This document shows positions 2,280 to 35,708 of a DNA stretch of 35,708 nt, piece by piece. The notes beneath the pieces were generated by a model. That model was not told the origin of the DNA. It was given only the letters and a program-made list of their open reading frames with translations, and ran no database searches. A program made the position numbers and the translations under genes. Every line of letters begins with the position of its first letter. Positions within the stretch are counted from its first letter, which is position 1. The DNA is from an uncultured Bacilli bacterium (lineage in GTDB: Bacteria > Bacillota_I > Bacilli_A > RF39 > UBA660): positions 1 to 35,708 of the forward strand of contig CALVKI010000054.1 of NCBI GenBank assembly GCA_944332635.1, read 5' to 3'.

Positions 2280-2304
2280 TATATGACCTCCTTAAGATTG
2301 AAAT

Positions 2305-2332: not shown

Positions 2333-2454
2333 TAAAAAATGCCATATGGGATTTTTTTGAATAGTAGATTTATCTAATAACTTCAAATGATAAATCTTGA
2401 TAAAAAGATGGAGCACATTATATTTGATTATTAAAAAATAATGATTATCATTAC

Positions 2455-2675: not shown

Positions 2676-2829
2676 AGAAAATTCTTATATTTTAAGAATG
2701 TTGGACTTTCTGCATTAAAGCTTTTAGAAATTCCACAAAGCTAAGTATCATGACAATTTAATTATATAAAAATAAAATATAAAAAAAGCTTGACATAAGT
2801 TGTCGAAAAAAATATTTTGAAATTATAAA

Positions 2830-2857
2830 TTGCATAAATAACATAAAAAAGTATGAT
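2830..2857 (+). promoter_or_regulatory. sigma-A promoter of the DUF3048-gpsA pair
   Basis: TTGCAT (2830-2835), a 16-bp spacer and TATGAT (2852-2857) lie 28 bases before the ATG. A second candidate, TTGACA (2790-2795) with 17 bp to TATTTT (2813-2818), lies just upstream and could add activity. Confidence 0.65.
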
Positions 2858-2885
2858 AAAATAAAGCTATAAAGGAGTGTTGCGA

Positions 2886-3980: not shown

Positions 3981-3993
3981 GAAAGGATTTTTT

Positions 3994-4965: not shown

Positions 4966-5067
4966 AAAAGGTGAATATGGATTATAATACCTTTAAAGTT
5001 CACACTAAATAAAAAGAACCAAAATATGGTAAAATTTATTTAGAAAGAATTTGGAGGTGTTTTTTTC

Positions 5068-5334
5068 ATGGGAAAACATAAGAAATGGACTTTAGAACAA
5101 AAAATCAAAATAGTAAAAGAATTTAAAAATGGAGCAACCATTTCATATTTAAACAATAAGTATGGAATATCTGGTATGGGTACAATAAGCAGATGGAATC
5201 AAGAATATGATAAAGGAATTCTAGCAAAAGATAATCGTGGTAAGAAAAAATATAATCAAGAATTGGAGGATATAGATATATTAAAAAAATCCTATGCTCT
5301 TCTGATGGAAATCCGCTCTCAGCAACACAAATAG
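5068..5334 (+). CDS. IS3-family transposase OrfA
   Basis: This 88-residue protein has the N-terminal helix-turn-helix of IS3 OrfA (KWTLEQKIKIVKEFKNG, then GTISRWNQEY) and a short helical tail. It would bind the element's inverted repeats. A good RBS (GGAGGTG, 5053-5059) precedes the ATG. Its 3' part overlaps the open orfB frame, and the A7 run at 5283-5289 allows ribosomes to move into that frame and make the OrfAB transposase. OrfA alone usually regulates transposition. Confidence 0.9.
   Translation: MGKHKKWTLEQKIKIVKEFKNGATISYLNNKYGISGMGTISRWNQEYDKGILAKDNRGKKKYNQELEDIDILKKSYALLMEIRSQQHK
5283..5289 (+). other. Programmed -1 frameshift site (A AAA AAA)
   Basis: In the orfA frame the codons are TTA AAA AAA TCC, a classical A_AAA_AAA slippery heptamer. 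The -1 frame is open from 5256 through to the end of orfB, so a slip here fuses the two products. This matches how IS3-family elements make their active transposase. Confidence 0.75.
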
Positions 5335-6188
5335 AGAAATATCAAATTATCGATAGATTAAAATTTGAGTATCCTATAGTTAGAATATGCAGAGTTTTAA
5401 ATGTAAATAGACGAAGTTACTATAAGTGGTGTAAGATAGAAAAACCATTTGCTAATAACTATAAACAAGAAATTGCTGAAGTGATATCAGAAGAGCATAA
5501 AAATGTCAAAGGGATTTATGGAACAATCAGATTAAAAAAACATATAGAAAATAAATTAAAAATTGTATTAAATCATAAATTAATACGACGATATAAACGT
5601 ATTTTAGGTTTAGAGACAGTAAAACGTACGAAAAAAGGATTAGCTAATATGAAATCAAAAGAAAAGAACCTTACGAATAAGGCTCCATACTTAATTGAAT
5701 GTAACTTTAATTCAGAAAAACCAAGACAAAAATTTTCTTCTGATGTAAGCTATATCAAATGTAAAGATGGAATTCTTTACTTGTCAGCTATTAAAGATTA
5801 CTTCAACACTGAAATTGTATCATTTTCTACGTCGAATTACAACAATATAGATTTAATAAAAGAAAGTTATAAAGATTTAAATCCAATTAAAGATTCTATT
5901 GTAAATACAGATCAAGGTTCAGTTTACTTTGCATATGAATACATAGAACTTTCTAAAACATTAGGATTTACAAGGAGTATGTCACATAAAGGCCATTGTT
6001 GGGAAAATTGTCCAATAGAAAATTGGTTTATGCAGTTAAAACATGAGTGGCTTTGTCAATTTAATAAGCTTACAAGAAAAGAAGCAGAAGAAGAAATAAA
6101 AAAATACGTTCATTGGTATAACAACGAACGTATTCAAAAGAAACTTGGATATTTATCACCTGTACAATACAGACTTAAATATTCATAA
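5286..6188 (+). CDS. IS3-family transposase OrfB (DDE catalytic part)
   Basis: This is the -1 frame relative to orfA, open from 5256 and entered at the A7 site. I see no strong independent start before a GTG at 5481. It encodes the helical RICRVLNVNRRSYYKW region, then the integrase core: first Asp in FSSDVSYIKC, second in VNTDQGSVYF, Glu in CWENCPIENWFMQLKHEW, and the conserved end YNNERIQKKLGYLSPVQY. All three catalytic residues and the C-terminus are present, so the element may still be mobile. Confidence 0.9.
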   Translation, partial: KILCSSDGNPLSATQIEKYQIIDRLKFEYPIVRICRVLNVNRRSYYKWCKIEKPFANNYKQEIAEVISEEHKNVKGIYGTIRLKKHIENKLKIVLNHKLIRRYKRILGLETVKRTKKGLANMKSKEKNLTNKAPYLIECNFNSEKPRQKFSSDVSYIKCKDGILYLSAIKDYFNTEIVSFSTSNYNNIDLIKESYKDLNPIKDSIVNTDQGSVYFAYEYIELSKTLGFTRSMSHKGHCWENCPIENWFMQLKHEWLCQFNKLTRKEAEEEIKKYVHWYNNERIQKKLGYLSPVQYRLKYS

Positions 6189-6316
6189 AATAAATATTTT
6201 TATTTAGTGTGTACTTGACAGGTACTAGTATCTAATAAAACCCTTATTTTTGGGATATGATATAAACCCTGTTTGGTAAACATCAATTAAGAACCTGTAC
6301 ATTAAAAAGAGAAAAG

Positions 6317-6324
6317 TTATTTTT
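6317..6324. repeat. 8-bp target duplication of the IS256 element, left
   Basis: TTATTTTT directly precedes the left inverted repeat and is repeated exactly after the right one at 7843-7850. Eight bases is the usual duplication length for IS256. Confidence 0.9.
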
Positions 6325-6395
6325 GAGTCTGTAAATAATTTTGTGTAAATAGAATCTTTCCATGATAAAATAGAAGAAATGGAGAGATTTTTATT

Positions 6396-7607
6396 ATGAA
6401 AGAAAAAAATACTAAAGGAAAAGAATTATTAAAAATATTACAAGAAAATTATGAAATAGAAACAGCCCAAGATATATCAACCGCATTAAAAGACATGTTT
6501 AAAGATGCTTTGCAAGAAATGATGAATACAGAATTTGACTCATCTATGGGTTATTCTAAATATGATAAAAAGCAAGAAAAAACAAATTATAGAAATGGTT
6601 CTACTAAAAAGAAATTAAAAAGTGAATTTGGAGAATTTGATTTTGAAACACCAAGAGATAGAAATGGCGAGTTTGAACCTAAAATAGTACCTAAAAATAA
6701 AAGAGATGTGTCAGGGATAGAAGATAAAATCATATCATTATATGCCAGAGGATTAACCACTAGGGAAATAAACGAACAAATACAAGACATATATGGTATA
6801 GAAGTATCAGCAACAATGGTTAGTAATATAACTGATCAAATAATTCCCGAAATAAAAGAATGGCAAGAAAGAACATTAGATGAAGTATATCCATTTGTAT
6901 TTATTGATGCCGTGCATTTTAGTGTTAGAGAAGATAATAGAGTTGTAAAAAAAGCCGCTTACATCGTGTTAGGAATAAATTCAGAGGGATATAAGGATGT
7001 TATGGGAATTTATATTGGAGAAAATGAATCTTCTAAATATTGGTTAGGAGTATTAAATGATTTAAAAGAACGAGGAGTTAAAGATATATTAATCATGTGT
7101 AGTGATAATTTAACAGGAATAAAAGAAGCAATAAATGCAGCTTATCCTGATACAGTTCAACAAAGATGTATCGTTCATATGATTAGAAATTCCGTAAAAT
7201 ATGTAAATTACAAAGATTTAAAAACATTTACTGCTGATTTAAAATTAATATATACATCAAAAAATGAAAAAGAAGGATATGAAAAATTACAAGAAATAAA
7301 AGAAAAATGGCAAGACAAATATGCATCAGCTTTTAAAATATGGGAATCAAATTGGGATGCCATATGTCCTTTTTTTCAATTTTCTGAACCTATAAGAAAA
7401 ATAATGTATACAACAAATACTATAGAATCATTAAATAGACAATTTAGAAAATATACTAAAACAAAATCTGTTTTTCCAACAGATATGTCATTATTAAAAT
7501 GCTTATATTTATCAGTAAAAAATATAGAAAAAAAGTGGTGTGTACCTTATAGAAATTGGGGTTCAATTTTATCCGAATTATCTATTATGTTTGATAATAG
7601 AATATAA
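6396..7607 (+). CDS. IS256 family (mutator-type) transposase
   Basis: This 403-residue DDE transposase moves the element that encodes it. Typical motifs appear in order: an N-terminal region with GYSKYDK and YRNGSTKKKL, ETPRDRNGEFEP, the first Asp in FVFIDAVHFSV, the second in IMCSDNLTGIKEAI, the QQRCIVHMIRNSVKYV helix, and the C-terminal TTNTIESLNRQFRK with the catalytic Glu. Length matches the family (about 390-410). The start ATG follows a GGAGAG-type RBS at 6379-6384. No interruption is seen, so the enzyme is probably functional. Confidence 0.95.
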   Translation: MKEKNTKGKELLKILQENYEIETAQDISTALKDMFKDALQEMMNTEFDSSMGYSKYDKKQEKTNYRNGSTKKKLKSEFGEFDFETPRDRNGEFEPKIVPKNKRDVSGIEDKIISLYARGLTTREINEQIQDIYGIEVSATMVSNITDQIIPEIKEWQERTLDEVYPFVFIDAVHFSVREDNRVVKKAAYIVLGINSEGYKDVMGIYIGENESSKYWLGVLNDLKERGVKDILIMCSDNLTGIKEAINAAYPDTVQQRCIVHMIRNSVKYVNYKDLKTFTADLKLIYTSKNEKEGYEKLQEIKEKWQDKYASAFKIWESNWDAICPFFQFSEPIRKIMYTTNTIESLNRQFRKYTKTKSVFPTDMSLLKCLYLSVKNIEKKWCVPYRNWGSILSELSIMFDNRI

Positions 7608-7652
7608 TCAATTTTTTTTGCAACTAATTATATTATAATCATTTTTCATTAA

Positions 7653-7686
7653 TCAAGGCTAAAATGAACAGCTGCGCTGGCCTTGA
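7653..7686. other. GC-rich stem-loop in the 3' region of the IS256 element
   Basis: An outer 7-bp stem TCAAGGC (7653-7659) with GCCTTGA (7680-7686) encloses an inner CAGC/GCTG hairpin. It is much richer in G+C than its surroundings and lacks a following T run on either strand, so it is not a standard terminator. The rest of 7608-7804 has no credible gene. Confidence 0.5.
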
Positions 7687-7842
7687 CTAATAAAATAATT
7701 ATAATTTATTGATAAATAACAAAAGAAAAAAGTTCTTTGAATTATTATTTATATATGGTATTATTAAATCAAGAAAAAAGGAACTATTGAAGTTCCAAAT
7801 ATTGTGGAAAGATATCATTTACACAGATTTTCTTACACACTC

Positions 7843-7850
7843 TTATTTTT
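7843..7850. repeat. 8-bp target duplication of the IS256 element, right
   Basis: TTATTTTT is identical to 6317-6324. Rejoining the flanks restores a 12-bp perfect inverted repeat (AAAAAGAGAAAA/TTTTCTCTTTTT) with a 6-base loop, so the element inserted at the centre of a palindrome. Confidence 0.9.
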
Positions 7851-8953
7851 TTCTCTTTTTCTTAACTTTTGACTTAAGTCTTTTATGTTATAAAATAATA
7901 TCCATCCTTCTACAAGTTAAAGATATTCTTGTAAAGATGTAATATTATTGTTGTACAAAGTTTCTTTTTTAAAAAGTGAGTGCCAACTCTCTATTGGAGC
8001 GTCATCAATCAAAGTTCCTTTTCTAGCCATTGAAATAGTTATTCCATTTGATTCACATATAGTTTTGTACTCATTAGATGTATATTGAAATCCTTGATCA
8101 AAATAGAAGATTAATTCATGTACATCTTTTTCTTTTGCTATTGCTTCATTTAAAGTATCTATTACTAATTTATTATCATTATATCTAGATATTTTATATG
8201 CAACTACATGTCTATCATATAAATCAATTATTGTAGACAAATATACTCTTGTTCCTTTAAATATTAAATATGTTACGTCGGTATACCATTCTTTATTAGG
8301 GGCATCAGTTGTAAAATTTCTTTTTAATAAATTAGGTTTGATATTTTCTTCAATTCTTTCATTCTTATGTTTTATCTTCGCTTTTCTTATATACTCAGCC
8401 ATTAAATTATATTTTTCATTATTCTTAATACCTTCTTTCTATTCATAACTACACCATATTTTGAGAGTAGGCCTTCAACTATCCTACGATATCCATAAGT
8501 GCTTTTAGAATCATCAAATAATTCTTTAATTATTAAATAATCATAATAATCAGGATCTTCTTTATTTCTATATTTATAATAGATTTTAAGATTTATATTA
8601 AGTACGGCACACACACATATTAGTAAGTTTATAGTTATCTCTATATAGATTTATAAATATTTCTTTTCTCTCGTTATGTCTTGAGGAAGGCTCGGTATTT
8701 TTTAAATATTTCATATCTTTCTTTCCAATCTTCTCTTATTAAATCTGAATCTTTTTTTCTTTCTCTTTTTTACAAACATTAGGATATAATTTAGGATGAT
8801 TTATATATCTTCTCTTCCATGTTTTTTAGTATATATTGATATATTATTTATTTTGGCAAGATGATATGCAATTACACCATTATTCATTTGACTAACAAAA
8901 TCATTTATAAATTCATCAGTATATTTAATAAATTTTTGACCTTTTGAAGCCAT
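7851..8953 (-). pseudogene. Broken IS3-family transposase genes (orfA and orfB)
   Basis: The orfA start is the ATG at 8953 (MASKGQKFIKYTDEF), with AAAGGATG upstream. That frame stops at 8801-8803, and the expected C-terminal part (DLIREDWKERYEIFKKYRAF) continues in another frame. OrfB begins around 8614 (NLKIYYKYRNKEDPDYYDYL), shifts frame near 8402-8425, then carries the DDE core with WYTDVTYL, YFDQGFQYTSNEY and APIESWHSLFKKE. An in-frame stop at 7917-7919 follows QEYL, after which LVEGWILFYNIKDLSQKL runs into the IS256 insertion. The last codons lie on the far side at about 6258-6316. With these lesions it cannot make transposase. Confidence 0.85.
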
Positions 8954-19603: not shown

Positions 19604-19626
19604 ATAAAAGATCCTATTTAGGATCT
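19604..19626 (-). terminator. Terminator of sepF-divIVA
   Basis: AGATCC/GGATCT with a 6-base loop overlaps the divIVA stop codon and is followed on the minus strand by TTTTA. It separates divIVA from the T-box unit. Confidence 0.6.
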
Positions 19627-20051
19627 AATTCCAAAAGTTCAATTTCATCAACAACAGCCATCTGCTGTTCCATAATAATCTTCAACTTACGCTTAAAAAT
19701 TTTCATATTCTTTTCTAACGTTTCTGCGTTATTTTCGATTTTTTGGGCTTTAAGTAGTGCTTCATTGACAATACGACTAGCATTATTTTTAGCATCACGA
19801 ACAATCATTTCATGTTCTTCTCTAGCCATTCGCTTAATATTATCACCAGTCTCCTCAGCTTTAAGAATTGCCTTTTGCAATGTAGTTTCCATACGTTTAT
19901 GATGTTCAAGCTCTGCTTTTAGCCTATCCAAAGCTTCACCTTGAGCTCGACATTTCTTAATAATCCCTTCTGTCTGTGCAATGACATCACTAACAAACTG
20001 ATTTACTTCCTGGCGATTATACCCATTAGCTTCATAACTAAATTTTTTCAT
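19614..20051 (-). CDS. divIVA: DivIVA-domain cell division/polarity protein
   Basis: The 145-residue protein starts with the DivIVA lipid-binding motif (KKFSYEANGYNRQEVNQFVSD), followed by a long coiled coil rich in Glu, Lys and Ala to the C-terminus. DivIVA binds negatively curved membrane at septa and poles and recruits division or polarity proteins; in spore formers it also helps position the chromosome. It lies 24 bp after sepF, matching the sepF-ylmG-ylmH-divIVA-ileS order of B. subtilis but without ylmG and ylmH. TGAGGTGATT is the RBS. Confidence 0.9.
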   Translation of the reverse strand: MKKFSYEANGYNRQEVNQFVSDVIAQTEGIIKKCRAQGEALDRLKAELEHHKRMETTLQKAILKAEETGDNIKRMAREEHEMIVRDAKNNASRIVNEALLKAQKIENNAETLEKNMKIFKRKLKIIMEQQMAVVDEIELLELDPK

Positions 20052-20075: not shown

Positions 20076-20498
20076 CTAAAAATCAAAGTCATCTTCTTTT
20101 TTCCCACTCTTAGCAGACTTAGCAGAAACAGCATCATCACTTATTTTTCCTTCTACATTTACATTATTAGGAGTACATAGGAAAATTCCTCCCCCTAATT
20201 TCTGTAAATCTCCACCAATAGCATAAATAGTACCGCTTAAAAAATCTACAATTCTCTTTGCTTGATCAGGAGTTACTCTCTTTAAATTCACAACAACAGC
20301 AGACCGACTTTTTAAATAATCTGCAATTTGTTGACTTTCAGAATAAGCACGAGGTTCAAGTAACATCATCTTACTACCAGCCACACCATTTGCTTCGTGA
20401 TATTCTTCTCGAGAAGTAGAATAAAATTCTTCATCAGTACCCTCTTCGATTGTATCATCTTCTCCCCCAAATAAATTTTTTAATTTATCTAAAGCCAT
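20076..20498 (-). CDS. sepF: Cell division protein SepF
   Basis: The 140-residue protein has the amphipathic membrane-binding start [12 protein letters not shown], an acidic linker, and the SepF core [20 protein letters not shown], then [20 protein letters not shown] with GGGIFLCTP. SepF tethers FtsZ to the membrane and shapes the septum. The start is the ATG at 20498: GGAGG (20506-20510) is well spaced for it, while the ATG 15 bases upstream overlaps that RBS. It is cotranscribed with divIVA. Confidence 0.93.
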
Positions 20499-20524
20499 AT
20501 TCCTATCCTCCATTTTATCTTAAC

Positions 20525-20568: not shown

Positions 20569-22578
20569 TTAAGCATTTGTACTCGCTTCCTGTGATTGTA
20601 TAAACCTATTTTGCTCAGGAACTGTCACAAACGATGCTGATTGCGTCTCATCTGAGCTCATTAAATGTACTCCACCCACGCTAATTCCAGCCACTTGTTG
20701 TGGTTGAATACTTCCTTGTACAGGTACAAAAGAAGCTGTTTGAACAGATGGCACAGCCGCAACACTTCCAGAACTTATCGACTGGTTAATAAAAATATTT
20801 GTATTAGGTTTCTGATACCATACCACTTTCAAATCAACATTATTAGAAAGAGGACGAGGATTTGGAAGATCAATATACATAGAAGTTGGCACTTGGAATG
20901 CACTACCAAAAGCTATACAATTACCAGGTTTCAAATTCTTAAGTTGCAAAACTATTTCTGAAGAAACATTAGGTACCATTTCTTTAATATACTGTAAATC
21001 AGTTGGATGAAGGGTTCTAAGAATAACAAAATTCATACACTGTGAAACACAAGTATCTGAAAGTTCACTAGGTCTTTGTGTAATAAGCCCCAAAAAAGCA
21101 CCATACTTACGCCCTTCTTTAGAAATTCGTTCAAAAATATTATATCCAAGTAAACTAACATCACTATCATGTTGAACATAACGATGAGCTTCCTCAATAA
21201 TAATATGATAAGCTATAGAACCACGAGGTTTTAACGTACTAGCTCTAAGGAAAAGCATTCTTGATAAAATCTTAGTAATAACTTTTGCCAACCTATCATC
21301 AATATAGTTAATATTAAAGTTAATAATTTGGCACCTAGAATTAGTTTTTGCATCAAACATCAAAGATTCAATATATTGATCTCTAGTTACATATTTGGGA
21401 TATTCAAAATAATATCTATTATCACCTGTAGCCAAAGTATGAAGGCGAACACTCATAACATTAGCAGTATCAAAAACTTTATCACTCTTTAAAATACCCT
21501 CACTAATAAGTGCAAATTCCATTGCATGTTCCAAATCAGTAAGATTATAAAACTTATTCATTTCTTCTTCTTTTATTTCTTCTTGCTCTTCATTAATATA
21601 TCCACGAATAAATTCAACAACAAGCTCCATCTCTTGCATCTTACCAGTTTTATCAACATACAAACATTGCTTCAACGTACGAACATATCCAGGTTGAGCA
21701 ATAGTACTTTCCAAATTAAGTTCAGACGTATTAAACTTAGTGAGTACGGCAATTACTTGATCACGGATTTTAGTAGAATCATTACCACTAAGTAAAATAT
21801 CCTGCAAAGCTCTCGCAATAATATCATTCTTTCTTTTTATAACACCAGCAGAATTACCAGTTAAAATTGGAACTAATTTCAAAGTTTTTTCCAAAATAGG
21901 AAGTTGTGCAGGTGTATTAACATCAAGTAACAAAGCCAAATCATCTACATCAAGCAACCACGTAGGAATCCTTAATATTTCACAATCTGGATCAATTACA
22001 TTAGTAGTATAAGCTTTATAATTAAGAGATTGATTCTTTTCATGTAAAGAACTAAAAGCATGAGTATATTCGCCATAAGCATCAAAAAAGAACAAAGCTG
22101 AATTTATTGGTGCTGTTGGACTACTAGTATATAATTTTTGAAGAATGGATGCAACAGTACAACTCTTACCTGCACCAGAATTACCAAGAATAGCAAAATG
22201 TGCGTTAAAAAACTCATTAATAGGAACATTAATTTTATATCCTTCATAAACATTACTTGTACCAAAATTAGTAAATCCAAAAGCAGTCTCTTGCTTACCA
22301 AATAATAGTTCCAACTCTTCTGAAGTAATTAAACGGACAATTGACTTAAATGCTGGTTTAGAACTAGCACCTGGAGTAAATCTCCCATCATTAATCTCTC
22401 CAACGACATTAGCAAACATCTTTGTCTGATTGACATTTGCTATTTCTGCAACTACTTTCTTACTGCTGCCATCTTCAAAAACAATATGCAAATTAACTAA
22501 ATTAGGTTGTTCATTAATATTAATAGCTAATTTTATAGTTACACTGTTATCAATAATCTCTTCAATTTTACCTATCAC
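20569..22578 (-). CDS. HerA-like hexameric ATPase (DUF87 family)
   Basis: The 669-residue protein starts with a small HAS-barrel-like beta domain (IGKIEEIIDNSVTIKL), then a HerA/FtsK-type ATPase: Walker A GNSGAGKS (132-139), FFFDAYGEYTHAF, IIIEEAHRYVQHD (Walker B and catalytic Glu), LITQRPSEL (sensor), VILRTLHPTD (probable Arg finger) and LKPGNCIAFG. HerA proteins translocate DNA, usually with the nuclease NurA; no nurA is present here. The last 80 residues are low-complexity, rich in Ser, Val and Gln. GTG is the probable start, after GAGGGTG. Upstream lies a zinc-ribbon/HExxH protein on the same strand, and sepF-divIVA follow. A DNA-processing or defence-like role is possible but unproved. 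Confidence 0.85.
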   Translation of the reverse strand: MIGKIEEIIDNSVTIKLAININEQPNLVNLHIVFEDGSSKKVVAEIANVNQTKMFANVVGEINDGRFTPGASSKPAFKSIVRLITSEELELLFGKQETAFGFTNFGTSNVYEGYKINVPINEFFNAHFAILGNSGAGKSCTVASILQKLYTSSPTAPINSALFFFDAYGEYTHAFSSLHEKNQSLNYKAYTTNVIDPDCEILRIPTWLLDVDDLALLLDVNTPAQLPILEKTLKLVPILTGNSAGVIKRKNDIIARALQDILLSGNDSTKIRDQVIAVLTKFNTSELNLESTIAQPGYVRTLKQCLYVDKTGKMQEMELVVEFIRGYINEEQEEIKEEEMNKFYNLTDLEHAMEFALISEGILKSDKVFDTANVMSVRLHTLATGDNRYYFEYPKYVTRDQYIESLMFDAKTNSRCQIINFNINYIDDRLAKVITKILSRMLFLRASTLKPRGSIAYHIIIEEAHRYVQHDSDVSLLGYNIFERISKEGRKYGAFLGLITQRPSELSDTCVSQCMNFVILRTLHPTDLQYIKEMVPNVSSEIVLQLKNLKPGNCIAFGSAFQVPTSMYIDLPNPRPLSNNVDLKVVWYQKPNTNIFINQSISSGSVAAVPSVQTASFVPVQGSIQPQQVAGISVGGVHLMSSDETQSASFVTVPEQNRFIQSQEASTNA

Positions 22579-22673
22579 ACTAACACCCTCTATTCTATCA
22601 TAAAATAATTATAACTTTTTTTATACCTATTTACAAGATTAAAAAAAAGAAAAAGAGCGACAAAAAATAAACT

Positions 22674-23864
22674 TTAAATTATCTTAGTCTCTTTATGTAA
22701 TCTCCGTTCTCTTGCATTAGCTCGCCTGATTAGTTCAATATATAAATTATCTTTTGAATCATCATCAAAATATAAAAACTCATCAATTAATTCTTGGTTA
22801 GTTTTCCAACGGATTTCATGACCATCTCTAACAAATTCATAACGAAATTGTGCAAAATGATTGTAAAGATCAGGCTCATCATTTAATATAGCTAAAACCT
22901 CTTCTTCCACCTCTACTTCTCTTCCTTCAATAACACGAGAAGTATCACCATACAACCATAAAGCACAATCAACTTCTTGTTGCATTCTAGAATCATCTGA
23001 CATCGTTAATCCAAATAACTCTAAAAAACGTTCTTCAATTAAATATCCGTTTATTCTAGCATCTATTTCTGCAAACTGTTTAAAATAATTATCATCGTAA
23101 ACTCCACTTCGTCTCGAATTAACAATCTGATCATACACCATAAACAAATCATATTTATTTTCTACAATATTACGAGTTCTTTTATAATTTTGATATACAT
23201 GGCAAGCTTCATGCCCTATTATATTAATTATTGAAGAACCTCCATTAGCAATAAAATCTTTAATAACATCTTCAGAAATTGACGCTTGGTTAAAATATGC
23301 CTCTCCATTTACATTCTCATCCAATACTTTAGACTCTATCCCACAAGTCTTTACCCATGGCTTTAAAATTTGATAAAAAAATTGATATAAAGCCCCCTCC
23401 ACTGCTTCATAAGGGTATTGTTTTTGTTTTGTAACTGTTTCAATTAATATCTTATTTTGTATAGAAATAGCTGCTTGATCCTGATACATTTGTGAACCAT
23501 CAAATAAGTTAAGTATTGCCTCATAATCTGAAGCAGAAATTCCTTCTATTAAAATTTTATTAGTCCAAGCTAAATAAGCCTCATCAACTTCTTCAGTATT
23601 AAAAGATGAAACAAACCTCAAATTATTACCAAGTTTTTTTAAAGAAACAAGTACAAATGGATCATCTAACAGATTTCCTGAATATTCACTTAAAATTTGA
23701 GAAAACTTTTCTACTTCTTCTTTGAATCTCTCATTAACCTTCGTACAATAAACACATTCAAAACCATCACTGAACTCATTAGAACCACAAGAAGTACAAG
23801 TATATACTTTTCTAATTCGCTGTAAACAATTAATTATTTGCTCGTTCCAATTCATCTCTAACAT
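22674..23864 (-). CDS. Zinc-ribbon protein with an HExxH metallopeptidase-like motif
   Basis: I do not recognise a named family. The 396-residue protein has an N-terminal zinc ribbon (C23-C26 in CTSC, C37-C40 in CVYC) and a central GHEACHVYQ. The latter is a canonical HExxH (H218, E219, H222) followed 44 residues later by AEIDAR (E266), a plausible third ligand, as in gluzincin-type peptidases. There is no signal peptide, so it is probably cytoplasmic. The C-terminal third is acidic and helical. The start ATG has a GAGG RBS and overlaps the end of a frameshifted small ORF. It is followed 95 bp later by the HerA-like ATPase on the same strand with no obvious terminator, so a shared transcript is likely. 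Confidence 0.7.
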   Translation of the reverse strand: MLEMNWNEQIINCLQRIRKVYTCTSCGSNEFSDGFECVYCTKVNERFKEEVEKFSQILSEYSGNLLDDPFVLVSLKKLGNNLRFVSSFNTEEVDEAYLAWTNKILIEGISASDYEAILNLFDGSQMYQDQAAISIQNKILIETVTKQKQYPYEAVEGALYQFFYQILKPWVKTCGIESKVLDENVNGEAYFNQASISEDVIKDFIANGGSSIINIIGHEACHVYQNYKRTRNIVENKYDLFMVYDQIVNSRRSGVYDDNYFKQFAEIDARINGYLIEERFLELFGLTMSDDSRMQQEVDCALWLYGDTSRVIEGREVEVEEEVLAILNDEPDLYNHFAQFRYEFVRDGHEIRWKTNQELIDEFLYFDDDSKDNLYIELIRRANARERRLHKETKII

Positions 23865-23989
23865 TTATCAATTCCTCAGTTTCTTTAATTTCCTTTAAAA
23901 TAATTCTACGAATATTTTCATCCTTCTCATCACAATACATTCTTCTAAGAATTTCCAGTTTTTTTTCAAATGACATTTCTAAATTCATA
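23830..23989 (-). pseudogene. Small ORF with a frameshift, unidentified
   Basis: An ATG at 23989 with RBS AAGGTGG opens MNLEMSFEKKLEILRR, which then meets a stop within a few codons. One base over, MYCDEKDENIRRIILKEIKE, then TEELINVRDELERANN, runs to a TAA at 23830-23832. The two halves read naturally as one helical, acidic protein of about 52 residues. The shift lies between an A8 run (23960-23967) and GAAATG at 23938-23943. It may be a real mutation, a slippery site or an assembly error. Alternatively, the ATG at 23940 alone gives a 36-residue protein. Its end overlaps the metallopeptidase-like gene by 35 bp. Confidence 0.45.
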
Positions 23990-24022
23990 TATTATCCACC
24001 TTAACAGTCTTATTTAAAAAAA

Positions 24023-24050
24023 ATATAACACAAAAAAGAAGCAAACTCAA
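24023..24050 (-). promoter_or_regulatory. Promoter of the small ORF/HExxH/HerA unit
   Basis: TTGAGT (24045-24050), a 16-bp spacer with TG before the -10, and TTATAT (24023-24028) on the minus strand lie 33 bases upstream of the small ORF start. Confidence 0.6.
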
Positions 24051-24063: not shown

Positions 24064-24158
24064 AAAAAGAGACCACAATGAAGTAGTCAAGAAAAAGTAG
24101 ACTAGACTCTTTTAGTCTTTGTCTAATTTTATCATATCACTTCACAATAGTCTCTTTT
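24064..24158 (-). terminator. Large imperfect hairpin ending the PP2C-lipoprotein unit
   Basis: Outer arms AAAAGAGAC/GTCTCTTTT and inner GAAGT/ACTTC pairs frame a 95-base structure containing a further GACT/AGTC hairpin. On the minus strand it starts at the lipoprotein stop codon and ends in a run of T, as expected for a terminator, but it is much longer than usual. Confidence 0.6.
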
Positions 24159-24768
24159 ATCCCTCATATAATCCATGGATTTTTTGTAAATCTAAATCCG
24201 TAATATTTTGTAATTGCCATTCACCATTCTTCTTAGTCAAATAAAAAGTAATATTATAAGTAGTAGTATCACTAACATTTTGTAATTCTTTTAGCTTATA
24301 ATCGATATAAGCTGCACTATTTTCAATGGCTTCTTCACTACCTTCAACAGCATCCTCTAAAAGATTATCATTATCAGATTGCTCTTTTTCATTAGAAGAT
24401 TCTATTTCCTCTTTATGCTCTTCATAATACTTTTTAACAGATCGAATTGTAGTAGCATAATCCAAAACCTCTATTTCTACATCAACTGTTGCCTCGTTAC
24501 CATTAATATTCTCGTTTTCAATTTTATATGATAAATTTTGATATTGTTTTTCTAAAATTGCACGATATTTATCTTTTTGTTCATCATTCATTGTCTTATC
24601 ATCAGAAAGAACTTGATCTAATTGAACAGTAACATCATCATCCATATTTTGATATTTTCCTAAAAACTCTTCTACCTTACTAGTAGGTGTATTCATAGTT
24701 GTACTACACCCTACTAATATCAATAATAAAAACCCAAAGCAAAGCAAAAATTTACCAAAATTTTTCAT
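24157..24768 (-). CDS. Lipoprotein with a DUF5105-like domain
   Basis: The 203-residue product has a lipoprotein signal: MKNFGKFLLCFGFLLLILVG then Cys, with lipobox LVGC (Cys21). It would be anchored on the outer face of the membrane. The mature part (VEEFLGKYQNMDDDVTVQLD, DKYRAILEKQYQNLSYKIEN, NEATVDVEIEVLDYATTI) resembles DUF5105/DUF4878-type lipoproteins with an NTF2-like fold. An acidic insert lies at about 125-150. The ATG at 24768 has TAGGAGGGA upstream. It follows the PP2C gene by 52 bp and was probably cotranscribed with it. Function is unknown. Confidence 0.75.
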   Translation of the reverse strand: MKNFGKFLLCFGFLLLILVGCSTTMNTPTSKVEEFLGKYQNMDDDVTVQLDQVLSDDKTMNDEQKDKYRAILEKQYQNLSYKIENENINGNEATVDVEIEVLDYATTIRSVKKYYEEHKEEIESSNEKEQSDNDNLLEDAVEGSEEAIENSAAYIDYKLKELQNVSDTTTYNITFYLTKKNGEWQLQNITDLDLQKIHGLYEG

Positions 24769-24820
24769 TTTTATCCCTCCTATTACTAGAATGAACAAAA
24801 ACATAGAAAATATTCAAAAA

Positions 24821-28953: not shown

Positions 28954-29736
28954 CTAATACCTCTTCTCCTGCTTAACTAACTTAGCATGAACAACCATCT
29001 TTTCACTATTATTATAACAAGTAGATAAAGTAAGTATTTTATTTGCAGTAGAAACATTAGTATCAAATTTTATCATACTACGATTCTTAATAGTATCCAA
29101 AAATTCTTGGTATAAACTATTATCACTAAAATTAGTATTTAAATAGTCATTAGTAGTTTTTATATGATAAGCACTAAATATCTCAAATAAATAATTATAA
29201 CTTAAAGTAGAAAGCCTTATAATACGTTTATTCTTATAAAACCATTCATCAGTAAGCACATTTTTCAAACTACCAAACATAGTACCATCTATCCTACCAT
29301 GAGCGTAAATAATCGTATTAGTATCCAGTGGATCGATTTTATTTCTATAATCCAAAAATATCCAACCAGCACTATTATAACTACCATCAAAAGAATGGGT
29401 TAAATAAAAAGAATTATTACTGTTTTGTACAAATGGATAATTAATATTAGTATAAGGTATTTCTATCCATCCAACAACATTACTATTTTTACTTAAAAGA
29501 TTAGTAAAATCTACACTCAATAAATCCTCATCATGATACTGGCTAGTATCCAAAATTTCTGTTGTAATAGTTTCATCAGTACTTTTAACCTTTACTATAT
29601 CTTGTAACTGAGAAATAATTTGATTAGTAGCTTTGAAATCTAAATACCAAATAACAATATGACATAATGAAAAAAAGAATACTATGATAAATATTACTAA
29701 AATAATAACGCTAAGTAATATTTTCTTATCTTTCAT
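28954..29736 (-). CDS. Class B sortase with Lys in place of the catalytic Arg
   Basis: The 260-residue membrane transpeptidase has one N-terminal helix (about 6-31). It has the class B features NVVGWIEIPYTNINYPFVQN, FLDYRN, the catalytic His146 in YAHGR and Cys240 in TLSTC. The segment after the Cys reads YNNSEKMVVHAKL: where class B enzymes have the catalytic Arg two residues before VVHAKL, this one has Lys246, and no Arg is nearby. It may attach the finished fibre to the wall or process the VPNTL protein. It follows the class C sortase by 13 bp in the same operon, with RBS GAGGAAT. Confidence 0.9.
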   Translation of the reverse strand: MKDKKILLSVIILVIFIIVFFFSLCHIVIWYLDFKATNQIISQLQDIVKVKSTDETITTEILDTSQYHDEDLLSVDFTNLLSKNSNVVGWIEIPYTNINYPFVQNSNNSFYLTHSFDGSYNSAGWIFLDYRNKIDPLDTNTIIYAHGRIDGTMFGSLKNVLTDEWFYKNKRIIRLSTLSYNYLFEIFSAYHIKTTNDYLNTNFSDNSLYQEFLDTIKNRSMIKFDTNVSTANKILTLSTCYNNSEKMVVHAKLVKQEKRY

Positions 29737-29749
29737 AGTATTCCTCCTA

Positions 29750-30634
29750 TCAAATAGTTTCGATACTAGACGAAGCCTTATCCTTGTTTTTTACATATCT
29801 ATCTTTTTTCTTCTTATAATAAATAATCACAATAACAATTAAAATAATGGAAATAATTAAACTACAATATAAAATAAGATCAGCATAAGTAAATGACTTA
29901 TCTTTTACTATCTGTTTTTCAACTTGTTTATTATATTCTATTCTTTCCCCACGAACTAGTAATCGATGAGTATTAACAGCATATGGTGTACAAGTAACCA
30001 AAGTAGCATAGTCTTTACCATCTACTATCTTTAATGCCTCTATCTCTGATGGTTCACTAACTAATATTTGATCTACTTTATAGGCAAGAACCTCGTCCAT
30101 GACATAAATATAAAAAATGTCCCCTTTTTTTAACTGATTTAAATCTGTAAAAAGACGTGAAGAAGGAAGTCCCCGATGTGCTGATAAAATAGTATGTGTA
30201 CTATTCCCACCAACTGGAAGAGAACTCCCTTCTAAATGGCCTACCCCTTTTTGCAATACATCTGAACTAGTACCATGATAAATTGGTATTCTAACATCAA
30301 TTTTAGGTATAGAAATGTACCCCATCATTCCATTATCATTTACATTTAAAATAGACAGATATTCTGACGAATTTGATTGGTTAGGATTTTGAAAAACATC
30401 AACAATATTATTAGACGAAAGAGAAGAATTATATTGTCTCGCTTTTACTAATAATTTGTCGTTTTCTACATCGGTCTTATCACTAACTGTATTTTGATAT
30501 GTATTAATAATTTTTTGATAATGATTTGCATTAATTAGATTACTAATAATAGGATATAAGATAAAACTTAAACCTATAATAATCATAAGGATAAATAAAA
30601 AAATAATAATTTTTTCTTTTATCTCTTTATTCAT
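29750..30634 (-). CDS. Class C (pilus-polymerising) sortase
   Basis: The 294-residue protein has an N-terminal helix (about 8-33), a sortase domain with ISIPKIDVRIPIYHG, His153 in SAHRGLPS, Cys215 in TLVTCTP and Arg224 in NTHRLLVRG, and a second C-terminal helix (about 254-273), the class C topology. Such enzymes join pilin subunits through Lys-LPxT isopeptide bonds. A DVFQNP segment near residue 80 lies where the lid usually sits but differs from the common DPF/DPW lid. It starts nine bases after the backbone pilin stop without a strong RBS, suggesting translational coupling. Confidence 0.93.
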   Translation of the reverse strand: MNKEIKEKIIIFLFILMIIIGLSFILYPIISNLINANHYQKIINTYQNTVSDKTDVENDKLLVKARQYNSSLSSNNIVDVFQNPNQSNSSEYLSILNVNDNGMMGYISIPKIDVRIPIYHGTSSDVLQKGVGHLEGSSLPVGGNSTHTILSAHRGLPSSRLFTDLNQLKKGDIFYIYVMDEVLAYKVDQILVSEPSEIEALKIVDGKDYATLVTCTPYAVNTHRLLVRGERIEYNKQVEKQIVKDKSFTYADLILYCSLIISIILIVIVIIYYKKKKDRYVKNKDKASSSIETI

Positions 30635-30643
30635 AAATTGTGC

Positions 30644-32155
30644 TTAACTTTCTTGATTTTCTTTTTTCTTGCGATAAATAAAGAAGAAATAAACTGCACT
30701 AGCAACAATTACTAAACCAATTAAAGTAATAATAACAGTACCAATACCACCTGTAACAGGTAATAAACCTACTTTTTCATTAGAAACTTCTAAACGATAA
30801 TACCCTTCAGTATCAGCATTTTCTAAACTACCTTCCCCTGGTCCAATCTTAGCACTAATAATAGAACCATCTAAACGATATCCTGTTGGTGCTTTAGTTT
30901 CTTTTACATAATAAGTGCCAGCGGCAAGACCTTTATATTGAGCAATACCACTTGCATTTGTAGAAACAACACCGATAGCTTGTTGTAATTCAGCATCTTT
31001 ATAAATAGTAAACTCTGCACCTTCCAAAGCAGCATTGCCATCAGCAGCATATTTATAAATTTCTAATCCATACAATAATACCGTAACTTGTCCATCACCT
31101 TCCTCAGGAACTGTTGTACTACTACCTGTTCCATATGGATCATTTGAATAAGTTAAAGTAGCATTGTTACTATTTCCACCATTGGCACCAAGACCAGCAT
31201 TATCATTTAATCTTGCTGTGTAGTTAATAGTAATAGTTGTACTATCTACATAATTAACATTAAAGGTAATAGTCATTTTTCTACCATCAATAGAAATAAC
31301 AGCAACTTCTTCACCACTTGCATTAGTAACTTTACCATCGCTAGCAGTAGTCAAAGTAACATCTCCATCTTTAATAATAACAGATGAAACCCCATTAAAG
31401 TCCAATCCTTCACTAAGTGTATCAGTAATTGTATAAACCTTATTTGTAGCGTTAATTGGATATTGTGGAACACTACCATTAATAATAAATGGAATATCAT
31501 CCCCTATAGAATAGCTTCCAGAATCATACCCTTCTTCACCAATAGACTTACTGATAGCTGCATCACTAACTTTTGCAACAATCTCTTCATTATTAATTAC
31601 CCAACTATTGCCACTAGCTGAAAAATCTAAATTACCAACCATAACTGCATAAATTCTAGATGTTGCAGTAGGTAATACTAGATAAGAACCAGCTTGTAAT
31701 GTAGCGCTTGCAGTAGTACCACTAACATTCATCTGTGTACCACTAACAGAATGAGATTTAATATATCCTGCATAAGCTCTAGCCAACTTATCGATATCTG
31801 AATTTGATAATGTAGATCCCGTATTTATATTTCCACTGCTATAAGAATATAAATCGTCAACCTTAAGCTTTTGATAAGTAGATGATTGCTTCAAGAATTC
31901 TTGAAAATCATCAGTAAATTCGTAAGTAATAACATCAGTTGTTTGATTATAAAAGGCATCTAAAATTTTATATGCCATAAGTTGATCACCAGATACAACA
32001 CCAGTAATAGACAAGGTTGCTGTATCAGTAATAATCTTACTTCCAGTATCAGAAGTACCAGTCTCACTTCCAACAGAAATAGCTGAAACATTGACTATTC
32101 CTATAAAAAGAAAAACTGATAAAATTAATAAAATTACTTTATTCTTTGTTTTCAT
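30644..32155 (-). CDS. LPVTG backbone pilin-like surface protein
   Basis: The 503-residue protein has a signal peptide (about 1-25, ending NVSA), an SpaH/FimA-type fimbrial backbone domain, a SpaA-like Cna-B domain (GLEIYKYAADGNAALEGAEF) with E-box GTYYVKETKAPTGYRL, sorting signal LLPVTGG, a transmembrane helix and a YRKKK tail. Lys in EIVAKVSDAAISKSI is a candidate for the pilin-linking Lys. It should be the main shaft subunit polymerised by the class C sortase that follows it. The ATG at 32155 has AAAGGTG eight bases upstream; a GTG 12 bases earlier overlaps that RBS. Its start overlaps the end of the VPNTL gene by 17 bp. Confidence 0.9.
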   Translation of the reverse strand: MKTKNKVILLILSVFLFIGIVNVSAISVGSETGTSDTGSKIITDTATLSITGVVSGDQLMAYKILDAFYNQTTDVITYEFTDDFQEFLKQSSTYQKLKVDDLYSYSSGNINTGSTLSNSDIDKLARAYAGYIKSHSVSGTQMNVSGTTASATLQAGSYLVLPTATSRIYAVMVGNLDFSASGNSWVINNEEIVAKVSDAAISKSIGEEGYDSGSYSIGDDIPFIINGSVPQYPINATNKVYTITDTLSEGLDFNGVSSVIIKDGDVTLTTASDGKVTNASGEEVAVISIDGRKMTITFNVNYVDSTTITINYTARLNDNAGLGANGGNSNNATLTYSNDPYGTGSSTTVPEEGDGQVTVLLYGLEIYKYAADGNAALEGAEFTIYKDAELQQAIGVVSTNASGIAQYKGLAAGTYYVKETKAPTGYRLDGSIISAKIGPGEGSLENADTEGYYRLEVSNEKVGLLPVTGGIGTVIITLIGLVIVASAVYFFFIYRKKKENQES

Positions 32156-32828
32156 TTTTATTTTCACCTTTCCTTTTTAAAATATATATCATCACTCCTA
32201 CAATAACCAAAAACGAAATAATGAACAGTATAACATAAAGATAAATATTATCTAATGTATTAGGAACTTTTTCACCATTATCATCGATACTTGGAGGAGT
32301 AACTTCTTGTTCAATTTTTTCACGCTTTGTTTTAGTATTTACCAAAACATCATATTGATATGTATCATTTTCTAAAGTGGGTATAGTAATTATCATAGGA
32401 GAAACCTCATAACGATAATCATCAATAATCTTACTATCTATCGAAACCAAATATAATCCTGGAACCAAATTAGAAAAGTAACCACTACCATCTTCTTTAG
32501 TTTTTAACGAAAAATCAGAATGTATTTCTTTTTTTGCAATATAAGAAAGAATCTCTTTTGCTTTTAAGCTAACTTCCGATGTAGTCATATTACTAAAATC
32601 AAAGGAAACATCTAAATAATTATCATCAAAATGAAATTGACCATTAGCATCTATATTAGCTAAAAAATAAAGGGAAACCTCAGCATCTGAAATTACTATA
32701 TCATTATATTGATGGTTAATTGTAACACTGGATATTCTAGATGAATCAATATTATCAGCACTTACATCCAAAACACATAAATTAAATATTGCCAGAAAAA
32801 GTAATAAACTACCCATGATTTTTTTCAT
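32139..32828 (-). CDS. Small pilin-like surface protein with a VPNTL sorting motif
   Basis: The 229-residue protein has a signal peptide (about 1-24), one Cna-B-like domain (VTINHQYNDIVISDAEVSLY to GYFSNLVPGLYLVSID), a linker with EQEVTPPSIDDNGEKVPNTL, a transmembrane helix and an LKRKGENK tail. The layout is that of a wall-anchored minor pilin, but the motif VPNTL(DN) lacks the usual Leu and Gly of LPxTG. It may be a base subunit handled by the class B sortase. The ATG at 32828 has GAGGTG upstream and overlaps the previous gene by 20 bp, so it is translationally coupled. Confidence 0.8.
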   Translation of the reverse strand: MKKIMGSLLLFLAIFNLCVLDVSADNIDSSRISSVTINHQYNDIVISDAEVSLYFLANIDANGQFHFDDNYLDVSFDFSNMTTSEVSLKAKEILSYIAKKEIHSDFSLKTKEDGSGYFSNLVPGLYLVSIDSKIIDDYRYEVSPMIITIPTLENDTYQYDVLVNTKTKREKIEQEVTPPSIDDNGEKVPNTLDNIYLYVILFIISFLVIVGVMIYILKRKGENKNENKE

Positions 32829-34893
32829 CTTTCTCACCTCTTTTCCTAAACAATAAAACTAAACATACTGTACCACCAATAATAAGAATAAGTCCTACGA
32901 CAATATAAGGAATAATTCCTACTCCACCAGTATTAGGTAATATATTTATTTTTTTATTTACAATAGATACTTTATTAACTCCATTATCATTAGAAACATC
33001 ATAATCAGGAATAATAATATTTCCATCATTAGCTACCTTAATTTCTAATGCCTTGCCTAACAACTGATAACCAGTAGATGCTCTAGTTTGTTTAAGATAA
33101 TAAGTCTTATTAGGAGAAAGACCAGTAAATTCAAAACCAGTAGAAACAACATTAGATAAATTACTATCACGATATAAAGTAAATTCTGCACCAGAAATAT
33201 TCTCACCATCTTCGTTTACTAAAGTGATTTGTAAAGCAATATTAGAAATTACAAAATCTACCGCTGATTTATATTCTTTACTAATATCCAAATGATAATT
33301 GGAATTACTTGCTAAAGCACCAGTAAGTTGTACAACGTTAGTAACATTTTTAACTACGTCTGTACCAACATTATAAGATGCATAAACTGTAACACTACTA
33401 TGTGCATCAATTGTTGGAATCAAAACCTGAGTATTGCTACGAACAGTATAACCTTCTCCATCAACAAAAATACAATCTAAAGTCTTTTCTTCTAACATAA
33501 CATCTAGAATTGGATAATCAGCAGTATTTTCAACAACAATAGAAAATCTAACAACATCACTATTGTGATATGATTCTTGTTTATTAATAATATTAACCGT
33601 AATTGTTGGAGAAAAGACCCCCTCTTCAACCATCCATTCTCCATAAATAATAACATCCTCTTCAGGCATAGTAAATTGTTCAGAAGAATACCAACCTAAA
33701 AATTTGTAACCAGTAGCATTTGGATAAGATGCAATAGTAACAGTATCACCAGGATAATAATTTTTCTCTATTGGCAATAAACTATCTGCATTTGGAGGAA
33801 TAACACTTCCTTGAAACTGATAGGTAACCTTATAACTAATACGTGCAAACATTCCAACTAAAGTAACAGAATGATCTGGCATAGTAAATATGATAGAATC
33901 ATCAATATTTGTACTTGGTAATTCGACATCACTAGAAGTCCATCCTAAAAAACGATAACCATTGATTATATCTCCAGCTTTTAAAGAGTCAAGTTTTACA
34001 TCACTACCAACAACATAACTTTTATCCAATGGAGGCAAATAGCCATCAGGAATCTCACCTGTAATGGTATAAGTCACATCTTGTTTCTTCTCTACCTTTT
34101 TAGTAAATGAGCCTTGAAATGTAACATGAGAAGATGGCATTATAAACACACCATCTGAAACGCTAACATCATCGGTAGTCCATCCACTAAATTCATACCC
34201 TTCTATATTAATATCTTGATTAACACTAACAGTACTTCCTGCTATATAGCTTGTAACTGCTGGAACTTCTGGAACACCATCCGGAACATCTCCCGTATAT
34301 TGATAAATTACATTAAATGGACTAATATTTTCTCTTCCAACAAATGCATGAACTGTATTAGATTTTGTAGACCTACTTCCTTCCCTACCATAAGCTGTAT
34401 TATAAAAATCCATTCTATAAATTCCATTAGATAATGTTGGAGTTTGAGTAATAATACCGACAGTAATTTTGCAACCTGCTTGTAGATAATTTACTTTAAA
34501 GGAAACTGTTCTAGTATCACTATCATATTTTAGTCCTGAAACACCACCATCTACATAACCAGCACAACTACTATTATCACTACGTTTAACAGCACCAATT
34601 GTACCATCATCTGTTTCAACAAACCCCTTAAATGTAAGACCTTCAGGAATTTTATCCTCAACATAAATATAATCACTATAAACCTGTGCAGTAGCACTAT
34701 CGCTAGAGCTAACTGCACTACCATCTTTACCATCATAGTTAACTTCAATATAATATATAAGTTCACTATTTTCTTCTAGCTTAACATCATTTTCTAAAGG
34801 AGTAGCGAAGGAGAAAGAAAGTCCAATAATAATACCAACGCCAATCATAATAAAACCAACAATGCCAATAAGCAACATTCTTTTATTTTTCAT
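32809..34893 (-). CDS. LPNTG adhesin/tip-like protein with SHIRT/InlB-like repeats
   Basis: The 694-residue protein has an N-terminal signal or anchor helix and an isopeptide-like N domain. Three repeats of about 75 residues follow (starting near VIYQYTGDVPDGVPEVP, YTITGEIPDGYLPPLD and VTYQFQGSVIPPNADS), each ending in a GYxFxGW..DV..P....T..G.F pattern like InlB B-repeats or SHIRT domains. After them come a DUF11-like domain, a Cna-B domain (TLVNEDGENISGAEFTLYRD, with KQTRASTGYQL as a degenerate E-box), LPNTGG, a helix and an RKRGEK tail. It probably forms the tip or stalk adhesin of the fibre. RBS AAAGGAG lies seven bases before the ATG. Confidence 0.88.
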   Translation of the reverse strand: MKNKRMLLIGIVGFIMIGVGIIIGLSFSFATPLENDVKLEENSELIYYIEVNYDGKDGSAVSSSDSATAQVYSDYIYVEDKIPEGLTFKGFVETDDGTIGAVKRSDNSSCAGYVDGGVSGLKYDSDTRTVSFKVNYLQAGCKITVGIITQTPTLSNGIYRMDFYNTAYGREGSRSTKSNTVHAFVGRENISPFNVIYQYTGDVPDGVPEVPAVTSYIAGSTVSVNQDINIEGYEFSGWTTDDVSVSDGVFIMPSSHVTFQGSFTKKVEKKQDVTYTITGEIPDGYLPPLDKSYVVGSDVKLDSLKAGDIINGYRFLGWTSSDVELPSTNIDDSIIFTMPDHSVTLVGMFARISYKVTYQFQGSVIPPNADSLLPIEKNYYPGDTVTIASYPNATGYKFLGWYSSEQFTMPEEDVIIYGEWMVEEGVFSPTITVNIINKQESYHNSDVVRFSIVVENTADYPILDVMLEEKTLDCIFVDGEGYTVRSNTQVLIPTIDAHSSVTVYASYNVGTDVVKNVTNVVQLTGALASNSNYHLDISKEYKSAVDFVISNIALQITLVNEDGENISGAEFTLYRDSNLSNVVSTGFEFTGLSPNKTYYLKQTRASTGYQLLGKALEIKVANDGNIIIPDYDVSNDNGVNKVSIVNKKINILPNTGGVGIIPYIVVGLILIIGGTVCLVLLFRKRGEKDEKNHG

Positions 34894-34950
34894 ATTTTTC
34901 TCCTTTCTAAAAAATATAATTAATTAAATATATTCAAATTAAACTCATAA

Positions 34951-35708
34951 TCAAAAGCTAACCCCTTCACTAGAAACTGTATCAGCAATTGTCACAGTAA
35001 AATAAGGCACTCCAGACTCCTCCAATCTAGAACGCATCCAAGTATATGCAGTACTATCTCTAACAATGACCTCAACACCGCTATCACTAACACCAACTGC
35101 CCCAAACATACGATTATGTGAAGTAGCATTGAACACCGCATTTCTCATATCTAAATTATATAATCTTTGACAAAAATCAAACATATTATTCATATTAGTT
35201 ACATTAGATGTGTCAAAATTACTTAAATCTAAATTAGTCAAACCAATACAACCATAAAACATACTACTCATATTAGTAACTTTTGATGTATCGAAACTGG
35301 CTAACTTTATGTTAGTTAGAGATTGACAGTATAGAAACATTTCCTGCATATTTATTACATTTGAAGTATTAAAATTACTCAAATCTAAATCTACTATGCT
35401 GCCACAAAAACCAAACATACCTTGCATAATAGTAACCCTTGAGGTATCAAAATTATTTAAATTCAAAGTCTTAACATTAGCAAAACCATAAAATAATGAA
35501 GTACAATCAGTGTTGGCTACAACTCCACCCCATCCACCAATGGATACTTTATAATCTCCATTACCATCATCTTCTATATAAGCAACTACACTCTTATCTT
35601 GTGCTTGTGATGCATCCCAATATGCAATTGCTGTATCAGGAACATCTATACTATTCTTAATTTCAATACTTGTAACCTTTTGTTTTGCATAATCAGTATT
35701 CCACCAAG
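34951..35708 (-). CDS. BspA/DUF285-like repeat surface protein, partial
   Basis: The gene runs off the right edge: the frame is open to the last base, so only the C-terminal 251 residues are seen. Four BspA-type (DUF285) units of about 23 residues are visible, with the pattern LDLSNFNTSNVINMQEMF, LASFDTSKVTNMSSMFYG and so on, preceded by an IEIKNSIDVPDTAIAYWDAS segment. Such proteins are extracellular, often adhesive. The C-terminus (VPYFTVTIADTVSSEGVSF) has no LPxTG motif or helix, so it is either secreted free or anchored by its missing N-terminal part. It ends 57 bp before the LPNTG protein and probably belongs to the same operon. Confidence 0.8.
   Translation of the reverse strand, partial: WWNTDYAKQKVTSIEIKNSIDVPDTAIAYWDASQAQDKSVVAYIEDDGNGDYKVSIGGWGGVVANTDCTSLFYGFANVKTLNLNNFDTSRVTIMQGMFGFCGSIVDLDLSNFNTSNVINMQEMFLYCQSLTNIKLASFDTSKVTNMSSMFYGCIGLTNLDLSNFDTSNVTNMNNMFDFCQRLYNLDMRNAVFNATSHNRMFGAVGVSDSGVEVIVRDSTAYTWMRSRLEESGVPYFTVTIADTVSSEGVSF

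Follow-up and report, generated by a model that had tools for sequence, protein, structure and literature searches.

We analyzed the window, a 35,708-nucleotide contig (CALVKI010000054.1, assembly GCA_944332635.1) of an uncultured Bacilli bacterium, with a focus on three open reading frames (ORFs) on its minus strand at positions 20569–23989: a small ORF of 52 amino acids (aa), a 396-aa gene for a protein with a zinc ribbon and an HExxH motif (a putative peptidase), and the gene of a HerA-type ATPase, here called HerA-1. A first-pass annotation made from the sequence alone had put these genes forward as one undescribed system, and our analysis confirmed the three ORFs at their positions. The results indicate that they probably represent two independent units lying side by side, namely a housekeeping HerA-1 without NurA and an accessory cassette composed of the small ORF and the peptidase gene. 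Below, “genus” denotes the genus of the window and “family” the uncultured Bacilli family, and G and L codes designate the genomes and loci compared. The window is contig C54 of genome G000, a draft of 1.45 Mb that is 71% complete. The peptidase copies compared also come from draft assemblies, so stops and breaks in them could be sequencing errors.

Linkage Between HerA and the Peptidase

The conserved linkage of HerA and the peptidase implied by the first-pass annotation did not survive a check of their co-occurrence. At E 1e-30, HerA of this subfamily was detected in 279 of the 291 family genomes (147 of 150 genera), whereas a profile of the genus peptidases matched 19 of these genomes and a looser profile of the core domain matched 82 (66 of 150 genera), many of the latter matches being weak. 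Within the genus, the peptidase is present in 7 of 16 genomes; it adjoins HerA-1 in three of these carriers (G000, G009, and G007) and lies elsewhere in four. Viewed from the HerA side, the 14 HerA-1 loci of the genus include three with the cassette upstream, ten in which a lipoprotein-like gene (identified by eye; 24157–24804 on the minus strand of the window) lies directly upstream, counting ORFs of at least 60 aa, and one (G005) with a different, 314-aa ORF. No dedicated effector was linked to HerA-1, which has the peptidase at 3 of 14 genus loci and has sepF and divIVA as its steady neighbors. Because the linkage is not conserved, we rejected a joint three-gene system. The small ORF and the peptidase gene are a real unit, and HerA-1 probably stands apart from it.

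Identity and Conservation of HerA-1

HerA-1 (20569–22578, minus strand; 669 aa, GTG start) was identified by Pfam DUF87 (78.1 bits, cut-off 23.2) and by the PADLOC HerA model PDLC04102 (366.7 bits), and it contains the Walker A motif GNSGAGKS, the Walker B motif IIIEEAH, and TQRP. Both Walker motifs and the following QRP motif are present in all 37 HerA proteins of the compared loci. The solved-structure chains closest to HerA-1 are named HerA or ATP-binding protein, and HerA-1 matches the HERA chain 4d2i (Sulfolobus HerA) at E 9.3e-23. The FtsK_SpoIIIE profile gave 17.8 bits, below its cut-off of 24, and the scores were 151.8 bits (cut-off 850) and 150.7 bits (cut-off 800) with the two NCBIfam equivalog models for anti-phage HerA.

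The description of HerA-1 as a HerA-type ATPase lacking NurA was borne out. No NurA exceeded the cut-off in 60 genomes (the window genome and 59 relatives, 37 of the 60 belonging to the family), in a search whose controls matched in 7 of 14 cases; one sub-threshold match of 18.4 bits was obtained in G033. The idea of a NurA hidden elsewhere in the genomes was set aside on this result. The HerA-NurA end-resection ATPases of archaea, Thermus, and Deinococcus resemble the window family in their DUF87 HerA ATPase with Walker A and B motifs, but the window family differs in the missing NurA, in usually having two paralogs (30 of 37 genomes), and in its housekeeping neighborhoods. For Thermus, an earlier study describes a NurA homolog ahead of the HerA homolog HepA in the genomes available at that time, the HB27 copy being truncated (PMC5448004).

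Each of the 37 family genomes in the close set (the window genome and 36 others) has a HerA match; 30 have two matches and seven have one, and the second of the two in G031 is a fragment. In a phylum-wide draw of 295 genomes, all 11 family members matched at more than 430 bits, and 11 of the 284 others matched at less than 100 bits. HerA-1 is a core gene of this bacterial family. A housekeeping HerA near sepF, which the first-pass annotation had offered as an alternative, agrees with these data: HerA-1 lies directly upstream of sepF (20076–20513, minus strand; Pfam SepF, 97.3 bits) in all 14 genus loci, and a divIVA-like gene (19614–20051, minus strand; Pfam DivIVA, 91.3 bits) follows sepF in 13 of them, the contig ending there in the other. 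In five other genera, HerA-1 follows HAD-phosphatase and YqeH-like cluster genes, with one gene in between in G017.

The start of HerA-1 is equally constant. The leader AGAATAGAGGGTGTT occurs just 5' of the start codon in 13 of 13 gaps between the lipoprotein-like gene and HerA, three with the cassette and ten without it. A promoter-like site, TTGTAA-17-TATAAT, lies at 22608–22636 on the minus strand (scan score 10/12); the scan found 16 such sites in the stretch where 10.7 were expected, and by itself this match is therefore no proof.

The second paralog, HerA-2, was examined at eight loci (L074 1–4479 on contig C22 of G000, L069, L073, and L075–L079) and lies among genes of the signal recognition particle (ftsY, ylxM, and ffh types) across several genera. 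A ylxM gene directly precedes it in seven of the eight loci, the eighth being a contig start; an ftsY-type gene lies before ylxM in the same seven, and an ffh-type gene directly follows HerA-2 in six. These neighbors were assigned by gene clusters, with a profile check of the clusters at one locus. In the genus of the window, HerA-2 has long C-terminal extensions (up to 783 aa). HerA-1 and HerA-2 formed two separate clades with 100/100 support, in a tree for which the program warned of meeting long branches.

The replacement of a lost FtsK by HerA was not supported as a general rule, with a strong FtsK match (>200 bits) in 32 of the 37 family genomes. The five genomes without one (G013, G015, G019, G022, and G029) are drafts of 90–96% completeness, except G015 at 73%, in which sequence may be missing, and their FtsK matches resemble fragments, EssC-type proteins, or HerA-type proteins. 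HerA may have replaced FtsK in these drafts. Frames of at least 1,500 aa with FtsK-type domains were also seen in at least 25 of the 37 family genomes and resemble EssC of type VII secretion.

Organization and Distribution of the Cassette

The small ORF lies at 23830–23988 on the minus strand and overlaps the peptidase gene (22674–23864, minus strand) by 35 nt; it is the constant upstream partner of that gene in the closer copies. In eight copies (six from the genus and two from another genus), its start lies 121–124 nt ahead of the peptidase ATG and its stop 35–38 nt past it, and the two copies from the other genus keep this spacing at a peptidase identity of 25–28%. The small ORF was correctly recognized as a real partner gene, but it is not frameshifted, as had been proposed: it is intact in all eight copies, in a different frame from the peptidase, and a ninth copy (G009) is the frameshifted one. 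Its reported acidity holds weakly, 14 D/E being nearly balanced by 11 K/R when counted by hand. Nei-Gojobori ratios of nonsynonymous to synonymous substitution (dN/dS) for the small ORF were 0.16–0.62 in 27 of 28 pairs, the remaining pair being saturated; those of the peptidase were 0.18–1.01, and the high values belong to distant, nearly saturated pairs. PHROGs, the sole library used for the small ORF, returned no named family match.

A Shine-Dalgarno-like sequence (GAGGA; 23873–23877, minus strand) precedes the peptidase ATG inside the small ORF, and such a sequence was found in the same register in all eight copies (GAGGA in six, CAGGAG in one, and AAGGAG in one). With a start and a Shine-Dalgarno sequence for the peptidase itself in eight of eight copies, a programmed frameshift fusing the two products would not be favored. 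Upstream of the small ORF, TTTTGTGnTATA is present in five of the six genus copies, with a variant in G007, despite their different genomic sites. In the window, a promoter-like site with a TG element (TTGAGT-17-TATATT; 24022–24050, minus strand) scored 9/12, which by itself is not above chance, and a terminator-like hairpin (24071–24088, minus strand) separates the lipoprotein-like gene from the cassette (1 found versus 0.2, standard deviation 0.4, in shuffled sequences).

We also compared the sites at which the cassette is found. G001, G003, and G005 carry it near obg, ahead of an Hpt/response-regulator gene, and in G004 it occupies a third kind of site. Across 15 genomes, the obg-side site was occupied in three; in five (G014, G004, G009, G013, and G010), a 229-aa gene abuts the Hpt/response-regulator gene without a cassette, and in seven the flank contained neither this 229-aa gene nor the cassette. 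Mobility of the cassette was inferred only from its different places in relatives. Beside HerA, two copies are decayed, the G009 peptidase having two in-frame TGA codons and the G007 peptidase a broken C-terminus; in both genomes, HerA is uninterrupted by stops. A defence-island setting was rejected, as the Pfam-named neighbors, a minority of all neighbors, look housekeeping (Obg, RimM, a TrmD-type methyltransferase, formate-tetrahydrofolate ligase, CorA, SpoIVA, an abhydrolase, and a MutS domain). The 314-aa ORF in the lipoprotein-HerA gap of G005 (L052 3571–4512) is unrelated to the cassette and has no Pfam match; by eye, its Cys/His/Asp pattern is like that of a cysteine peptidase or transglutaminase.

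The Zinc-Ribbon/HExxH Protein and Its Family

The first-pass annotation could not place the 396-aa protein, and neither could we: the residues that it had listed are present, and no significant match was found in Pfam, NCBIfam, PADLOC, PHROGs, or the PDB sequences. The protein contains C23xxC26 and C37xxC40, an HEACH motif (H218, E219, and H222), and a downstream E266, which lies 47 residues past E219; both the HExxH motif and this Glu fall in predicted helices. All eight residues (C23, C26, C37, C40, H218, E219, H222, and E266) are invariant in six aligned sequences, those of the window and five relatives. Residue 221 is C in the window protein only and R in the other six genus copies, including that of G009, which makes HEARH the usual form in the genus.

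More widely, the seven columns of the pattern HExxH...Y..N...E..A are invariant in 19 of 19 aligned members with 17–44% identity to the window protein. The rows came from profile hits centered on this region, which biases the count toward the pattern, although none of 22 candidates was dropped for a missing HExxH. Both CxxC pairs are present in ten of 15 distant members and absent from five. The SprT-like profile matched two of the 19 members (best E 0.03) and did not match that of the window. In the phylum draw of 295 genomes, the core profile gave matches of no more than 31.6 bits in 12 genomes of other families, eight of them in ORFs of at most 203 aa, and we take these matches to be chance or unrelated HExxH proteins. 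Zinc metallopeptidases with an HExxH motif and a downstream Glu ligand are of the gluzincin type. The window family shares the motif and the invariant downstream Glu; it differs in that neither Pfam, NCBIfam, nor the PDB sequences gave it a significant match. We consider the protein to belong to an unnamed divergent family of putative gluzincin-like peptidases, and we take it to be cytosolic, no signal peptide being seen by eye.

Comparison of Alternative Explanations

Sir2-HerA is an anti-phage HerA system. HerA-1 resembles such systems in that the solved chains most related to it bear the name HerA or ATP-binding protein and in its match to the PADLOC HerA model; HerA-1 differs from them in being core and not patchy, in having no constant effector partner, and in falling far below the NCBIfam equivalog cut-offs. 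By analogy, the window could hold a three-gene system in which HerA drives DNA handling and the peptidase and the small protein form the effector, like the nucleases or NADases of defence HerAs. The adjacency in G000, G009, and G007, together with a distant member in G064, favors this explanation, and HerA family members, DUF4297-HerA among them, pair with effectors in anti-phage systems (PMC11291478). We nevertheless consider it highly improbable. HerA-1 is mostly found without the peptidase and the peptidase mostly away from HerA, the HerA leader is the same where no peptidase is present, and the anti-phage models score far too low; moreover, HerA remains free of stops in G009 and G007, where the cassette has decayed (including the small-ORF frameshift in G009), although in drafts this decay could be an error.

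The other two explanations concern the cassette itself. Type II toxin-antitoxin modules have a small upstream gene that overlaps a larger partner, and their spread is patchy. As a special case of the two-unit reading, the small protein could restrain a toxic protease in a module of this kind; the small gene comes first and overlaps its partner in eight of eight copies, and the cassette is patchy, lies at differing sites, and includes decayed copies. The layout was not seen in most of the distant members, and the cassette has no named family match. No peptidase copy was found in phages, plasmids, or viral contigs, and no mobile carrier was identified; furthermore, conservation of the small protein is at least equal to that of the peptidase, and the role of an adaptor or chaperone would fit as well. 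We regard a toxin-antitoxin-like cassette as rather unlikely. A further possibility, an HExxH protein that lacks activity, serves a structural or regulatory role, and has merely kept the motif, is improbable: the lack of a convincing fold match and the unusual HEACH of the window copy would suit it, but the HExxH together with Y, N, E, and A is invariant in all 19 aligned members, the most divergent at 17% identity, as would be expected if catalysis were maintained.

Several results weigh against two independent units or against the enzymatic nature of the peptidase. On the HerA side, 12 of the 291 family genomes lack HerA at E 1e-30; eight of these are at least 90% complete, and the 12 include all three sampled members of genus g59 (G076, G209, and G303), in which the loss of HerA is possibly real. 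The terminator scan found none between the peptidase and HerA, and a hairpin there is weak (z −1.96), so read-through from one unit into the other is possible. In G064, HerA-1 is followed on the same strand, after about 40 nt, by a 367-aa member that lacks the zinc ribbon. This was the sole further HerA adjacency among 15 distant loci read; as a very rough estimate for a genome of 1,200 genes, the chance of placement beside either HerA is about 0.3% each, and the case may reflect a weak preference of the peptidase for HerA. As for the cassette, no ORF obviously corresponding to the small one was seen in the distant members L109–L117 and L119–L121, and therefore the pair is established for the closer copies only; L118 has an overlapping 60-aa ORF of similar look. 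Two structure models of the HExxH protein, of the full length and of the domain alone, were built from six sequences (mean predicted local distance difference test scores of 79 and 68) and are mostly helical. Foldseek returned nothing at E 0.001 with the models. VIA placed aminopeptidase N, BepA, and PepO at Z 4.2–4.4 among unrelated rows with the model of the protein, and with the domain alone the sole metallopeptidase match was FtsH (Z 3.6), again among unrelated rows. With six input sequences and no clear fold match among those listed, the models neither confirm nor exclude a metallopeptidase-like site.

Proposed Roles of the Two Units

On the two-unit reading, HerA-1 would be a housekeeping pump ATPase that acts independently of NurA and has its own promoter-like leader, and HerA-1 and HerA-2 would most likely move or clear double-stranded DNA in chromosome segregation, division, or repair. 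In the cassette, the small protein would be made first, and the peptidase would be read from the Shine-Dalgarno sequence inside the small ORF; because this sequence is internal, translational coupling of the two genes is probable. Binding of the small protein to the peptidase, in the role of an inhibitor, adaptor, or chaperone, is the most likely relationship between them; the peptidase itself may be a cytosolic gluzincin-like zinc enzyme that cleaves some intracellular protein. The cassette would sit between differing housekeeping genes in relatives, often being absent or decayed, with the HerA side as one landing site.

Other Features of the Window and Its Relatives

In minus-strand transcription order, the region contains a PP2C-like gene and the lipoprotein-like gene (both named by eye), the 52-aa ORF, the zinc-ribbon/HExxH gene, HerA-1, sepF, and divIVA. 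Five genus genomes (L048, L049, L050, L055, and L056) have one to three tandem copies of a 233–262-aa protein family between divIVA and ileS, and one member searched against Pfam had no match. By eye, the left end of the window (331–8402) holds a cluster of several transposase- or integrase-like ORFs, and positions 28954–35706 hold two ORFs resembling sortases along with large cell-wall proteins that end in LPxTG-like tails, which suggests a pilus or surface-protein cluster.

Implications for the Family

Among the published titles and abstracts on HerA or DUF87 in the matches listed, none describes this arrangement. Searches of Pfam, NCBIfam, PHROGs, and PADLOC gave nothing significant for the HExxH family that comes with a tiny partner ORF. 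HerA is kept in 147 of the 150 genera, usually as two copies per genome, with no NurA above the cut-off in the 37 family genomes, which raises the question of the task that HerA performs when the nuclease it usually works with is missing. We tentatively raise the possibility that the peptidases form an undescribed, diversified family controlled by a small protein, nearly confined to this bacterial family and spread as a cassette between housekeeping genes, which might serve as a regulated-proteolysis module for stress, toxin, or anti-phage functions, and that the bacteria additionally possess two fixed NurA-less HerA pumps that may carry out a chromosome task.

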